DNA of 64,000 bases from the NCBI RefSeq assembly GCF_002903165.1, contig NZ_PPSK01000004.1, positions 248,001 through 312,000 on the forward strand, given 5' to 3'. The DNA is from Halopseudomonas oceani. GTDB taxonomy: Bacteria > Pseudomonadota > Gammaproteobacteria > Pseudomonadales > Pseudomonadaceae. Positions within the stretch are counted from its first letter, which is position 1, and the number at the start of each line of letters is the position of its first letter. Below the pieces are notes generated by a model that saw nothing but the letters and a program-made list of their open reading frames with translations, ran no database searches and was not told the DNA's origin. This document shows, piece after piece, positions 53,502 to 57,842 of this stretch. The position numbers and the translations under genes are program-made.

Positions 53502-54569
53502 TTAGTTGCGAAGCTGATCTGCGGCGGCAAGCAGCGCCTGCGCAGTGGCCTCCCAACCCAGGCAGCCATCCGTGATGGAAACACCGTAACGCAGCTCGCC
53601 AGACAGCGCCTGACAGCCATCGAACAGGTGACTTTCCAGCATCACACCACGCAGGCTGGTGTCGCCCGCGACGCGCTGAGCAACCACATCGGCCAGCACC
53701 TCAGGCTGACGCAACGGGTCTTTACCGCTATTGGCGTGACTGCAATCCACCACCAGTGCCGCCGGCATGCCCAGTCGCTCAAGCTCTGCGCGCACCTTGG
53801 CAACGGCATCGGCCTGGTAGTTCGGGCCGCTGCGACCACCACGCAGCACGATGTGAGTATCGGGATTGCCGACGGTTTCGACCAGCGCCGGACGACCGTG
53901 CATATCCATGCCGAAATGCTGGTGCCGATGCCGAGCCGAACGCATGGCGTCGCAAGCGACCGTCATACTGCCATCTGTGCCGTTCTTGAAGCCGACTGGC
54001 AGGTGCAAGCCGCTGACCAGCTCACGGTGGATCTGCGATTCACTGGTACGCGCTCCGATGCAGCCCCAGCTCAACAGATCGTCAAGGTAACTCGCCGCCA
54101 ACGGTTGCAGCAGCTCGGTCGCAATCGGCAAACCCAATTCACTGATCGCCAGCATGGTGCGGCGCGACAGCGCCAGACCGGCGGCCAGGTCGCTGCTGCC
54201 ATCCAGCTGCGGATCGTACAGCATGCCCTTCCAGCCGACCGTGGTGCGCGGTTTTTCGACGTAGGCTCGCATTACCAGCAACAGCCGATCCGCAACACGG
54301 GCCTGCAACTCGGCGAGCCGCTCAGCGTATTCGATTGCCGCATCAGGGTCGTGCAGGGAACAGGGGCCGGTGATCACCAGCAGGCGGTCATCCTTGCCTT
54401 CGAGAATGTCTCGGATGGCCTGGCGGTGCGCCTCAATGGCGTCAGCCTGACCCTGGCTCAACGGCAGGCGCTCGCGTAGCTGCGCTGGCGTCGGCAGAGT
54501 GTGGGTACGGCGGTTGGCGCTTTGCGTGGTCGGGGCTGCGCTGGCAAGTGCAGTTACGGTGGCGGTCAT
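53502..54569 (-). CDS. 3-deoxy-7-phosphoheptulonate (DAHP) synthase, class I
   Basis: First enzyme of the shikimate pathway, condensing phosphoenolpyruvate with erythrose-4-phosphate; 355 residues. Motifs: VITGPCSLHDPDAAIEYAERL (as GPCSLHD), RAYVEKPRTTVGWKG, GARTSESQIHRE, GFKNGTDG, and VDCSHANSGKD. It belongs to the AroF/AroG/AroH type with feedback by an aromatic amino acid; which one cannot be told from the sequence. Ribosome binding site AAGGAA precedes ATG 54569. Upstream lie a leader peptide rich in aromatic codons and a terminator, which indicate attenuation. Confidence 0.95.
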   Translation of the reverse strand: MTATVTALASAAPTTQSANRRTHTLPTPAQLRERLPLSQGQADAIEAHRQAIRDILEGKDDRLLVITGPCSLHDPDAAIEYAERLAELQARVADRLLLVMRAYVEKPRTTVGWKGMLYDPQLDGSSDLAAGLALSRRTMLAISELGLPIATELLQPLAASYLDDLLSWGCIGARTSESQIHRELVSGLHLPVGFKNGTDGSMTVACDAMRSARHRHQHFGMDMHGRPALVETVGNPDTHIVLRGGRSGPNYQADAVAKVRAELERLGMPAALVVDCSHANSGKDPLRQPEVLADVVAQRVAGDTSLRGVMLESHLFDGCQALSGELRYGVSITDGCLGWEATAQALLAAADQLRN

Positions 54570-54609
54570 CTTTTGCTTCCTTAGCCGGGGCGGTCTTGCC
54601 GCCGCGGCG

Positions 54610-54711
54610 CTATCTGGGTGTTCGATCGATTAAATGTCGTGCAGTCAGTGAGCCAGTGCAAAATCGCCAGCTGCGGTAAGAGCGCGGGTTGTAAGTGCGT
54701 TGTGCGTACAT
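54610..54711 (-). other. Short open frame with aromatic codons, between terminator and DAHP synthase
   Basis: ATG 54711 is preceded by GGAATCGGC. The 33-codon frame begins MYAQRTYNPRSYRSWRF, with three Tyr, one Trp and one Phe in the first 17 codons. It lies after the terminator, so it cannot serve a simple attenuator upstream; it may be a second upstream open frame or chance. Confidence 0.3.
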
Positions 54712-54740
54712 GCCGATTCCTCAAATATGCAAAACCCAAT

Positions 54741-54774
54741 AAAAAAACCCCGATCGGGGAGCCGACCGGGGTTT
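54741..54774 (-). terminator. Strand-specific leader terminator of DAHP synthase
   Basis: Stem of 13 pairs (AAACCCCGGTCGG / CCGATCGGGGTTT) followed by seven T on the minus strand. One pair is G-U in minus-strand RNA but would be an A-C mismatch in plus-strand RNA, so the hairpin is better in the minus direction. Confidence 0.85.
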
Positions 54775-54807
54775 CTTGATTCTCTGGTGGCGACCCGTCA
54801 ATTCAGG

Positions 54808-54828
54808 GCGCCTGTGGGTATCAGGCGC
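54808..54828 (-). promoter_or_regulatory. Pause-type hairpin at end of leader peptide
   Basis: GCGCCTG / CAGGCGC, a perfect 7-base stem with a 7-base loop, covering the last codons and stop of the leader peptide. This is the position of the 1:2 hairpin in amino-acid attenuators. A GACGGGT downstream (54793-54799) can pair in part with the terminator's 5' arm. Confidence 0.6.
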
Positions 54829-54937
54829 GCCTTTGGCTAAACCAATACCCAAAATAAAAGTAACCAACCGCCGCACGCGCAGCAACGACAGCACGCGAGG
54901 CGCTGGCGATAGGGAGCGGTGCAGAACAAAGTGTCAT
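54821..54937 (-). CDS. Aromatic leader peptide of DAHP synthase (attenuator peptide)
   Basis: A 38-residue peptide starting MTLCSAPLPIAS and ending GYFYFGYWFSQRRA: seven aromatic residues in an eight-residue stretch (codons 26-33; Tyr, Phe and Trp). AAAGG lies 10 bases upstream of ATG 54937. An overlapping ATG five bases further up opens only two codons. Ribosome stalling on these codons when charged aromatic tRNAs are scarce would cover the first arm of the pause hairpin (54828 onward) and favour read-through of the terminator at 54741-54774. No other role is likely for such a peptide. Confidence 0.85.
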   Translation of the reverse strand: MTLCSAPLPIASASRAVVAARAAVGYFYFGYWFSQRRA

Positions 54938-55000
54938 GGCATGGTTACCTTTAAACATTGAGTCGACTCTAACGGATCAGTTGCGCTGCGCGCAACCCCC

Positions 55001-56332
55001 TCAGCGGCGCTTCGGCGGGGCCAGACCATCCGACGACGTGACCACCTGGCCCACTGGCGGTCGCGACGGACGCTTGCCAGCCCTAGGCTTCTTCGACTTT
55101 GGTGCTGCCTTCTTGCCATCCTTTTTGCCGTCTTTCTTTTTCTTGCTGCCGACCGGCTTGCCGGATGCCTTGACCTTCTTCGGTCCCTTGAAACTGCCAG
55201 GCACTTCAGCCAGCAAGCGACGCTCGAACTGACGGCGCAGGTAACGTTCGATGCTCGACATCAAATTCCACTCGTGCGGGCAAACCAGCGAAATCGCCAG
55301 GCCTTCGGCACCCGCACGACCGGTACGACCAACTCGGTGCAGGTAGTCGTCGCCGCTGCGCGGCATGTCAAAGTTGACCACCCGATCCAGCTCAACGATA
55401 TCCAGACCGCGAGCAGCAACATCAGTCGCGACCAGAATACCGTTGGCACCCTGTTTGAAGCGCTCGACAGCCATGTAGCGATCTTTCTGATCCTTCTCGC
55501 CATGCAGCACGTACACGCGCAGATCCAGCGCACGCAGCACACCATTGATGCGATCCGCCATCACCCGGGTGTTGGTGAAGACAATGGTTTTGCCCTCCCC
55601 CTGGTTCAGCATCAGCCATTTGAGCATGGCTTCCTTATGGGGATTGTCATCCGCGGGAATGACTTGCTGGGTAATGCTTGGGGTGTCATCACGAACCGAA
55701 TTCAGCGCAAGAATCTGCGGCTCGGTCAGAACCGAATCGATCATCCGCTGCAGCCCTCGATTGCCTTTGGTCGCCGAGAACAGCATGGTCTGCCGCTGGT
55801 CCGGGCAGGCTGCAGCGAGCTTGCCAACATCCTCGGCGAAGCCCATGTCGAGCATCCGGTCCGCCTCATCAAGCACCAATGTCTGCACACTGCTCAATTC
55901 AAGATTGCCGGCAGTCAACTGCTCCAGCGCCCGGCCCGGTGTTGCCACGACGATATCCGGATTCTTGCGCAGGCGCGCAGCCTGCACGCGGAAATCCTCA
56001 CCACCAGTGACCTGCTCAGCCTTGATGAACGTGAACTTTGCCAATGCGGCAATATCCTTCGACACCTGACGAGCCAGTTCGCGGGTCGGAACCAGAATCA
56101 GCCCCCGCGGGGCCAGCGGCTTGCTGTCGTCGGCGAGCAGTCGCTGCAGCATCGGCAGTACGAACGCAGCAGTCTTGCCGCTGCCCGTCTGAGCGATAAC
56201 GTAAAGGTCCTTACCTTCGATCGCGGGCGGGATAGCTGCCGCCTGTACATCGGTGGGTTGCTGGAAGGAAAGCTCGGCGAGCGCCTTGAGTACGCGCTCG
56301 TGCAGATCAAATTGGCTGAACAATGAAGTCAC
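55001..56332 (-). CDS. DEAD-box ATP-dependent RNA helicase
   Basis: RNA helicase of about 443 residues. Motifs in order: Q-motif region FQQPTDVQ, AQTGSGKT (I), PTRELA (Ia), TPGR, DEADRMLD (II), SAT (III), VLHGEKDQKDR, VATDVAARGLD (V) and HRVGRTGRAG (VI). The C-terminal 75 residues are a low-complexity basic tail (KKKKDGKKDGKKAAPK...), typical of RNA-binding extensions in RhlE-like proteins. GTG 56332 is chosen because the core starts just after it; the ribosome binding site is weak and TTG 56323 is an alternative. Confidence 0.9.
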   Translation of the reverse strand: MTSLFSQFDLHERVLKALAELSFQQPTDVQAAAIPPAIEGKDLYVIAQTGSGKTAAFVLPMLQRLLADDSKPLAPRGLILVPTRELARQVSKDIAALAKFTFIKAEQVTGGEDFRVQAARLRKNPDIVVATPGRALEQLTAGNLELSSVQTLVLDEADRMLDMGFAEDVGKLAAACPDQRQTMLFSATKGNRGLQRMIDSVLTEPQILALNSVRDDTPSITQQVIPADDNPHKEAMLKWLMLNQGEGKTIVFTNTRVMADRINGVLRALDLRVYVLHGEKDQKDRYMAVERFKQGANGILVATDVAARGLDIVELDRVVNFDMPRSGDDYLHRVGRTGRAGAEGLAISLVCPHEWNLMSSIERYLRRQFERRLLAEVPGSFKGPKKVKASGKPVGSKKKKDGKKDGKKAAPKSKKPRAGKRPSRPPVGQVVTSSDGLAPPKRR

Positions 56333-56471: not shown

Positions 56472-57842
56472 TTAGCGGATACCCGAAGCACGCAGGGCAG
56501 CCGGTGTGAACTGATTGTAGGTCGGCACATAGTCAAGGTCCGGAGCAGAAACCTCTTCGGTGTACATACCCAGTGCGATGTAACGACCTGCCAGCAGGTC
56601 ATACAGCGTTTCCAGCGCATAACCCGGAATCTGGTAGTCGTAGTTGAAGGACATGTGACCTTCACCCACGCGCCACAGCGTGCCACGACCGTCGTAATGA
56701 TCCGCCAGCGTGATCATCCAGGAGTCTTCGTCCACAAAGAAGTTACGCTGAGCGTAGATGTGACGCTGACCTTCCTTGACGTTGCCCTGTACTTCCCACA
56801 CGCGGTGCAGCTCGAAACGGGTGTAGTCCGGGTTGACGTGACCAGCCTGCAGAACGTCGGCGTACTGAACACCACGCTGGGTCAGCTTGCCACTGTTGTA
56901 CGGAATGAAGACTTCCTTCTTGCCAACCAGCTTCCAGTTATAACGGTCAGGTGCACCGTTATACATCGCGAAGTTGTCGGAAGTACGCATACCGTCGGAG
57001 GCGGTACCCGGGCCGTCGTAGGCAACCTGCGGAGCACGACGTACACGGCGCTGACCAGCGTTGTATACCCATGCCATACGGGGCTCTTTCAGCTGATCCA
57101 GGCTATCGTGTACCAGCAGTACGTTACCTGCCAGACGCGCCGGAGCGTTTACACGCTGCTTGAAGAACAGCAGGGTGTTCGGCATGGTCGACTCGTCGAC
57201 GTCAGCCATTTGCTGCGGGTAGCCTACTTCTTCTTCCAGCTTGATCAGGGTGAACGACCCGTTGGTCTGCGGCATGGCCTGCATGTACCAGCGGTGGGCG
57301 TTCAGACGATAGCGGGTGTTGTGGTTCCAGATAACCTCTGCACCGGACTTCGGAATCGGGAACGCGAAGGTACCGTGACTGAAGTTGGAGATACCGTCAC
57401 CGCCGTTAACCAGCTTGGCCTGACCGGCCGAAGCCTTGACCTGATCGTAAACGTCCTGCGGGTAGCCTACCGAACGGTGGGTTACATAAACCGGCATGCG
57501 GAAGGTTTCCGGATAACGCTCGAACATGGCGATCTGACCAGGAGTCAGATTGTCACGGTACTGCTGATAGTTCTGAGCAGTGATCACGAACTCCGGCTGC
57601 TCACCCTCATAGGGGCTTTCATAAAAGTTATCTTCGAGGCGCTTACCAGCATCTCTCGGCAGGCCACCAGTCCATTCCGGAATGGTACCGGCGGCGTTAC
57701 CGGCCTTCTCCGCACCGATTGGTGTCAGGGAAGCACCCAGCTGATCGATTTCAGCCTGGGTCAGAGTTTGCGCCATTACAGAGGATGCCATCAGGCTCAG
57801 AGCCAGACCACCGACACCCATCAGAGTTTGTTGCATACGCAT
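56472..57842 (-). CDS. DUF1329 domain protein, copy A
   Basis: Exported protein of 456 residues with signal peptide MRMQQTLMGVGGLALSLMASSVMA and a DUF1329 body. DUF1329 has a LolB-like fold in structural predictions and is usually encoded next to a DUF1302 outer-membrane protein; the pair is linked to handling of lipids, sterols or other hydrophobic compounds, but the function is not established. Notable motifs: WNHNTRYRLNAHRWYMQAMPQTNG, QRRVRRAPQVAYDGPGTASDGMR, FFVDEDSW (partial). The copy at 61256 is highly similar. The gene follows DUF1302 copy A by 29 bases. Confidence 0.85.
   Translation of the reverse strand: MRMQQTLMGVGGLALSLMASSVMAQTLTQAEIDQLGASLTPIGAEKAGNAAGTIPEWTGGLPRDAGKRLEDNFYESPYEGEQPEFVITAQNYQQYRDNLTPGQIAMFERYPETFRMPVYVTHRSVGYPQDVYDQVKASAGQAKLVNGGDGISNFSHGTFAFPIPKSGAEVIWNHNTRYRLNAHRWYMQAMPQTNGSFTLIKLEEEVGYPQQMADVDESTMPNTLLFFKQRVNAPARLAGNVLLVHDSLDQLKEPRMAWVYNAGQRRVRRAPQVAYDGPGTASDGMRTSDNFAMYNGAPDRYNWKLVGKKEVFIPYNSGKLTQRGVQYADVLQAGHVNPDYTRFELHRVWEVQGNVKEGQRHIYAQRNFFVDEDSWMITLADHYDGRGTLWRVGEGHMSFNYDYQIPGYALETLYDLLAGRYIALGMYTEEVSAPDLDYVPTYNQFTPAALRASGIR

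Follow-up and report, generated by a model that had tools for sequence, protein, structure and literature searches.

The class I DAHP synthase gene of Halopseudomonas oceani very probably stands behind a ribosome-mediated transcription attenuator. We favor this reading because a translatable Tyr/Phe/Trp leader, alternative helices and a terminator are kept together before the same enzyme. An earlier, sequence-only reading of the window (the whole 64 kb stretch of DNA analysed) had proposed translation-coupled attenuation before DAHP synthase, and the conserved run, the helices and the linkage to the enzyme lend support to that proposal.

The aromatic leader, P15 and the enzyme gene

54821-54937, minus strand: ORF1, aromatic leader peptide, 38 codons including the stop (by translation; start common to close relatives)
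54839-54862, minus strand: aromatic control codons YFYFGYWF, 7 aromatic codons in 8
54747-54863, minus strand: full-length match to Rfam RF00627 (P15), 94.9 bits against a gathering score of 70
53502-54569, minus strand: class I DAHP synthase gene, over the NF009395 and TIGR00034 cut-offs, the gene putatively controlled

On the minus strand, the leader is flanked by an RNA helicase gene ending at 55001 and by the DAHP synthase gene starting at 54569. Two genes upstream, at 56475-57842 (minus), a 456-residue protein is encoded for which NCBIfam gives no match at E up to 0.001. ORF1 opens with an ATG at 54937, 3' of an AAAGG, encodes MTLCSAPLPIASASRAVVAARAAVGYFYFGYWFSQRRA with the C-terminal end GYFYFGYWFSQRRA, and stops at 54823-54821. 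The 38-codon frame, its Shine-Dalgarno-like AAAGG and the seven Tyr/Phe/Trp codons in eight are all present as first described. An alternative in-frame start at 54958 would give 45 codons; the shorter frame is preferred because close relatives (L004, L005, L009 and L014) share its start together with the AAAGG. No promoter-like sigma-70 sequence is found at 54560-55060 by a simple scan, and the ORF1 peptide matches no NCBIfam or Pfam family over cut-off. Chance is ruled out as the origin of the run, which is the sole stretch with at least six aromatic codons in eight across all six frames of the 64 kb window; 60 dinucleotide shuffles of the window yield a mean of 0.017 stretches with six aromatic codons in eight and none with seven.

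P15 is the only family of Rfam 15 above its gathering score in the window, and the match spans model positions 1-119 of 119. The RF00627 model extends from the aromatic codons into the terminator and therefore omits the opening part of the leader ORF. Since it covers the run through to the terminator, P15 would best be read as the terminated leader of the DAHP synthase gene. The passages available from open-licence PubMed Central literature contain no description of P15 as a leader-peptide attenuator. PA2843 was considered as the Pseudomonas aeruginosa gene behind P15 and dropped, as it is a type II enzyme according to the available text of PMC6435475.

P15 is found over cut-off in 30 of 37 genomes of the window's genus, 239 of 298 genomes of its family, 21 of 390 genomes of the order and 2 of 369 genomes of the class, both of the latter from the window's own family. 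At E up to 0.001 the order-level count rises to 42 of 390 (16 from the window's family, 15 from one further family of the order, f43, 10 from the Halomonadaceae and 1 from f16) and the class-level count to 7 of 369. The distribution searches give zero matches in 14 control genomes. The Halomonadaceae loci tested score under the RF00627 gathering score; a pattern for the Halomonadaceae form matches 86 stretches in 84,980 named genomes, from Halomonas, Vreelandella, Chromohalobacter, Billgrantia, Salinicola and relatives, genera that we take to be Halomonadaceae. One genome of the window's family (G246) carries two equal-score P15 matches on two contigs (C5:6347-6466 and C15:41343-41462).

The same leader precedes the same enzyme in the window's family, the Halomonadaceae and f43. 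The start of the DAHP synthase gene follows the leader in 89 of 90 fetched loci of the window's family (the exception, L016, is at a contig end), in 19 of 20 fetched order-level loci (the exception is L133, of f16) and in 78 of the 86 pattern loci, the other 8 matches lying no more than about 600 nt from where the available sequence ends. The sequence-only reading had named a lack of conservation as the outcome that would speak against it; comparison of related genomes shows both the aromatic run and the hairpins to be conserved, with the enzyme behind them in 89/90 and 19/20 loci. In the class sample, two genomes of a further family (f207) have YFYGYWFS or SGYWFI before the enzyme. Three weak P15 matches (L133, L223 and L224) are judged to be unrelated, and no DAHP synthase is found beside them.

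Of 54 genomes of the window's family lacking P15 in the sample, 16 were examined. Ten have only a paralog of 48-51% identity, one has a 48-51% paralog and a 60% fragment, and one has none. The remaining four, from the window's genus, carry a diverged enzyme (54-57% identity) behind a different leader, WAWFGFGFYYR. No complete close ortholog without P15 occurs among these 16. In the four WAWFGFGFYYR genomes (L095, L096, L097 and L098), which have their own terminator just 5' of the gene and lack the core of the second reading frame described below, enzyme and attenuator have apparently been replaced together.

Further comparisons rest on a set of 190 loci, comprising 87 from the window's family, 11 from f43 and 92 from the Halomonadaceae (three-part values below follow this order). 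Loci were anchored on the enzyme start plus a Y/F-W-F/Y codon motif, or on the Halomonadaceae pattern; counts of the enzyme (window's family and f43) and of YWF in this set are not independent, because the anchor demands them. L001, L002, L093, L094, L133 and L016 (where the contig ends before the enzyme) were skipped or not anchored, L091 and L092 were dropped for terminator score and L149 and L157 as too short, and L221-L224 lie outside the set. An earlier, stricter rule for the T run lost 28 loci and was relaxed. Some Halomonadaceae genomes are present twice (for example, as L126 and L154). Unique sequences were used for the helices X and Y and the ORF2 count described below, for folding without a ribosome, and for part of the work on free RNA and on the d/e swap; duplicates were retained in the U-ending codon shares, the ribosome walk, the counts of starts and Shine-Dalgarno sequences, and the count of free-RNA folds.

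Every P15 locus translated has an uninterrupted leader ORF that includes the aromatic run. In the first 60 P15 loci, which were found by the RNA model and not by the peptide, the last 18 residues of the frame hold 5-8 aromatics. The five codons before the Y/F-W-F/Y anchor contain a mean of 3.2, 2.8 and 2.3 further aromatics, and an in-frame start with a Shine-Dalgarno-like sequence, by our own rule, is present in 87/87, 9/11 and 63/92 loci; the N-terminal part of ORF1 varies among loci. Within the run, U is the third base of 87%, 62% and 92% of the Tyr and Phe codons (190 loci), compared with 18%, 8% and 34% in the enzyme gene.

These data bear on the view that P15 is a free-standing, trans-acting sRNA whose place before the enzyme gene is incidental. 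Rfam types P15 as Gene, and the available portion of Livny et al. 2006 (PMC2375449) includes it among the sRNAs reported there; furthermore, being a terminated leader would not preclude a role in trans, which the accessible text of PMC7298713 claims for Sinorhizobium rnTrpL/peTrpL. Against this, the start of the Rfam model falls within a conserved open reading frame, the element travels with the enzyme gene, and it has the mutually exclusive antiterminator pairings described below. We consider an incidental, trans-acting P15 very unlikely.

Alternative helices and the moving ribosome

54841-54851, minus strand: segment a, partner of 54826-54815 when terminated (folding)
54815-54832, minus strand: segment b, including the ORF1 stop; partner of a, or of c when antiterminated (folding)
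54804-54814, minus strand: segment c, partner of b or d (folding)
54786-54797, minus strand: segment d, partner of c, or of the upper terminator (54767-54755) as antiterminator (folding)
54741-54777, minus strand: segments e and f, intrinsic terminator with seven T (folding and sequence)

The computed fold of the leader RNA is better than all 200 dinucleotide shuffles (z -3.72) and includes the pause-type hairpin over the ORF1 stop noted earlier. The terminator hairpin (54777-54742) has 16 pairs and a loop of 4, with seven T reaching 54741, and begins 43 nt after the stop; the sequence-only reading was right about the seven T and close in its spacing of about 45, while its 13 pairs fall short. 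The hairpin is present in the 190 loci, and L091 and L092 are under threshold. The full-length leader folds as a:b, c:d and e:f. When only the RNA that a ribosome stalled at the Trp codon would expose is folded, as far as the terminator loop, b:c and d:e form in 81/87, 11/11 and 92/92 loci (at least six pairs in each helix, by our own rule). Folding thus bears out the exclusive pairings expected of the leader, with six segments instead of the 1:2, 2:3 and 3:4 scheme first envisaged, and supports a predicted his-like attenuator in which a:b, c:d and e:f (terminator) compete with b:c and d:e (antiterminator).

Both alternative helix sets are kept across the three families. In the Halomonadaceae, d:e mostly pairs GGGUUGCC with GGCAACCC, or GGUUGCC with GGUAACC, and b:c co-varies, pairing GGUGUGCC with GGCACACC in 57 of 92 loci and GGCGUGCC with GGCACGCC in 17 of 92. 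The d:e helix is formed by GUGCUGCC and GGCAGCAC in L134, and by GGGACGCC and GGUAUCCC in 3 of the 11 f43 loci. Helix statistics were obtained from two alignments of our own choosing, one of 14 sequences from the window's family plus 8 from f43 and one of 13 Halomonadaceae; 37 references were prepared, of which L134 (very diverged) and L154 were left unaligned. The 13 Halomonadaceae show 94.9% paired cells for b:c and d:e, with changes on both sides at 5 pairs (shuffle mean 1.5 pairs, 0 of 500 as high; slid versions attain at most 47.5% pairing and 1 such pair). The other 22 sequences are 82.7% paired (shuffles 81.1, slid versions at most 49.8), and both-side changes occur at only 2 pairs, which we count against the attenuator: the shuffle mean is 1.5, 234 of 500 shuffles are as high, and the version slid by 2 gives 5. 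For the terminated set, these 22 sequences are 87.3% paired, with 26 both-side cells versus 13.2 in shuffles, and the Halomonadaceae are 85.4% paired, with 12 versus 5.3; the Halomonadaceae version slid by 1 has 13 both-side cells at 67.3% pairing.

Compensatory changes for b:c and d:e are therefore clear in the Halomonadaceae and weak in the window's family. A swap of d and e segments, scored by duplex energy, has an effect of about 1 kcal/mol in f43 and the Halomonadaceae; between loci of the window's family swapped partners pair no worse than their own (-13.40 own, -13.31 swapped), which also counts against the attenuator. Together, these statistics indicate that both forms are kept, the antiterminator being less well proven in the window's own family.

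The response to ribosome position was modeled by moving a ribosome codon by codon, with 12 nt covered from the A site, and computing the probability of the antiterminator. For the window's family (25 of 87 loci) the mean is 0.74 before W-5 (five codons before the Trp codon, W), rises to 0.96-0.97 while the A site lies between W-5 and W, and then falls to 0.86 (W+1), 0.46 (W+3) and 0.36 (W+7). For f43 (11 of 11 loci) the values are 0.92-1.00 between W-5 and W+1, dropping to 0.43-0.60 from W+3. In both averages the peak positions coincide with the aromatic codons. Two results count against the attenuator: the window's own leader stays at 0.82-0.96 even after the run, and the Halomonadaceae (25 of 92 loci) at 0.69-0.89 from W+2. 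With no ribosome and the 3' arm of the terminator not yet made, the antiterminator is again favored on average, with means of 0.72, 0.64 and 0.92 (179 unique loci), which we likewise count against the attenuator. Equilibrium folding would then account for the "on" state and not fully for the "off" state, so the order of folding and the release of the ribosome must presumably matter.

From the anatomy, which is visible in the sequence, we infer stalling, read-through and the origin of P15 as the terminated product. Poor charging of any one aromatic tRNA would stall the ribosome in the run, where it would cover segment a. With a covered, b:c would form and d would take the upper part of the terminator; the resulting d:e would let RNA polymerase read through into the enzyme gene. 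When all aromatic tRNAs are charged, the ribosome would advance, leaving b covered or re-paired, so that c:d and the terminator e:f could form and transcription would end. The short RNA released would be what was catalogued as sRNA P15, and the enzyme would be controlled by the charging of the Tyr, Phe and Trp tRNAs.

A peptide that arrests its own ribosome, through a GYWFS end that binds free aromatic amino acid or product and not for want of charged tRNA, appears highly improbable. Conservation of the end (F/Y)GYWFS is tighter than the number of aromatics alone would require, yet part of that tightness arises because a:b and the P15 fold constrain the same letters; moreover, the residues preceding GYWFS vary, and the bias toward U-ending codons points to decoding. 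A riboswitch or other direct ligand sensor to which the reading frame is secondary, as proposed for P15 in the accessible part of a 2008 paper from synteny with a Listeria TPP riboswitch locus (PMC2527527), is scarcely credible given that no Rfam riboswitch or T-box family exceeds its gathering score in the window, no strong riboswitch match lies near the leader even at E up to 10, and the frame, start signal and aromatic run are conserved.

A second short reading frame

54610-54711, minus strand: ORF2, second conserved short ORF, MYAQRTYNPRSYRSWRFCTGSLTARHLIDRTPR, with GAGGA at 54722-54718
54658-54669, minus strand: ORF2 core UGG-CGA-UUU-UGC (W R F C) (sequence)
54584-54608, minus strand: G+C-rich hairpin from the ORF2 stop to the enzyme start (sequence; similar ones by eye in some relatives)

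Between the terminator and the DAHP synthase gene lies a second frame, ORF2, which the sequence-only reading had missed, as it had the P15 match. Frames of 24-66 codons that start with ATG behind a Shine-Dalgarno-like sequence and encode three or more aromatics, Trp among them, are found in 168 of 171 unique regions (86/87 in the window's family, 6/7 in f43 and 76/77 in the Halomonadaceae, with 4 f43 and 3 Halomonadaceae loci excluded for length), and in 0.3%, 0% and 1.4% of shuffles. By these criteria ORF2 is absent in L084, L117 and L208. Its synonymous sites evolve the faster, with a dN/dS of 0.52 for 25 pairs of the window's family and 0.53 for 28 Halomonadaceae pairs, values to which RNA structure may contribute. 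The Arg codon of the core is CGA in 76/78 unique cases of the window's family and 76/76 of the Halomonadaceae, compared with 89 of 1901 and 78 of 1833 Arg codons of the enzyme genes. The Phe codon is UUU in 77/79 and 76/76 unique cases. We also weighed programmed frameshifting at CGA-UUU, and put it aside on visual inspection only. In Vreelandella maris (L203) the run before the core is lengthened to GYGYGYGYGWRFS, so the number of Tyr codons differs between close relatives. In V. lionensis (L208) the frame picked is without the WRFS core, unlike its relatives, and may reflect a shifted frame or loss.

Two helices follow the ORF2 core at fixed spacing in 69 unique Halomonadaceae sequences and 22 from the window's family, the latter admitted only if they contain GCCGCCUCCG(A/U). 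Helix X (CGGUCGG with CCGACCG) is 96% paired and helix Y (GCCACC with GGUGGC) 99%, figures that this choice of loci favors within the window's family. Both-side changes number 7 and 5 cells, whereas shuffles give 1.6 and 0.8, none of 500 reaching the observed value for either helix. Slid versions are at most 58% and 53% paired; a slide of +3 gives 24 both-side cells for each at 46% and 52% pairing. X and Y interlock, as a pseudoknot or as two exclusive hairpins, and CACCUCC, which resembles the 3' end of 16S rRNA, is located between them. By eye, its CUCCG is complementary to a CGGAG before many halomonad enzyme genes.

Present in the read-through RNA, ORF2 probably adds a further layer of control. 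The window's genus has a short ORF2 with no recognised X or Y, and the fold of the window's ORF2 region is no better than chance, with 160 of 200 shuffles doing as well (z +0.82); for these reasons we put forward translational control by ORF2 as a hypothesis. Two aromatic sensors in series, P15 acting by transcription termination and ORF2 as a translational attenuator of a new kind, are a tentative possibility. The slow UGG-CGA-UUU core of an aromatic ORF2 peptide would lie just 5' of the interlocking helices (H-type pseudoknot or exclusive hairpins), these would hold the anti-Shine-Dalgarno mimic CACCUCC, and a ribosome held at the core would decide whether the ribosome binding site of the enzyme is open. 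The ORF2 peptide has no NCBIfam or Pfam family over cut-off (one Pfam line at E 0.26, 12.3 bits against 31), no Rfam family covers the element in the five loci tested, and an ORF2 with a CGA-UUU core and interlocking helices is absent from Pfam, NCBIfam, Rfam and the literature searched.

Both leaders have a Trp codon followed by UUUAGC or a near form (UGG-UUU-AGC in ORF1, UGG-CGA-UUU-AGC in ORF2). This shared pattern hints that one leader was duplicated into the other; the second may descend from a duplicate of the first.

Related leaders and biological meaning

In Escherichia coli, the his operon leader has six segments, its antiterminator b:c and d:e opposing a:b, c:d and e:f; the enterobacterial pheA and trp leaders serve one amino acid each and have fewer segments. 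The P15 leader has the layout of his, which differs in its histidine run; the Rfam His_leader model reaches just 20.4 bits in the window, on the other strand, against a cut-off of 49. As is proposed here, the ribosome stalls at codons for the product of the pathway in the pheA and trp leaders, according to the available text of PMC11802643. The nearest functional parallel appears to be the aroR leader of aroF in Corynebacterium glutamicum, where leader-peptide attenuation of a DAHP synthase also relies on aromatic codons (PMC11802643, PMC4046766). In the parts of these sources available, the aroR run is described as Phe-Tyr-Phe only, with no Trp, and the organism is of another phylum; we regard the likeness as one of function. 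A tyr-tRNA attenuator of aroF is listed, with reference to E. coli, in the accessible portion of a Shewanella study (PMC2659441). Two short ORFs within one leader are likewise reported in the available text on Salmonella mgtCBR (PMC3641672), a likeness of layout; the signals and the gene differ. RF00627 itself is the same element as that studied here, the difference lying in its Rfam type of Gene (sRNA).

The kind of attenuator is therefore of the textbook sort; what is new is a leader for three amino acids, the link to an sRNA name, the six segments and the conserved second ORF. If the attenuator reading is true, a catalogued sRNA of no assigned role gains a function. Likewise, a regulator would be assigned to an entry enzyme of aromatic biosynthesis in pseudomonads and halomonads. 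A Tyr/Phe/Trp leader suits an enzyme that supplies all three aromatic pathways, and it raises the question of how three charging signals are integrated by a single ribosome.
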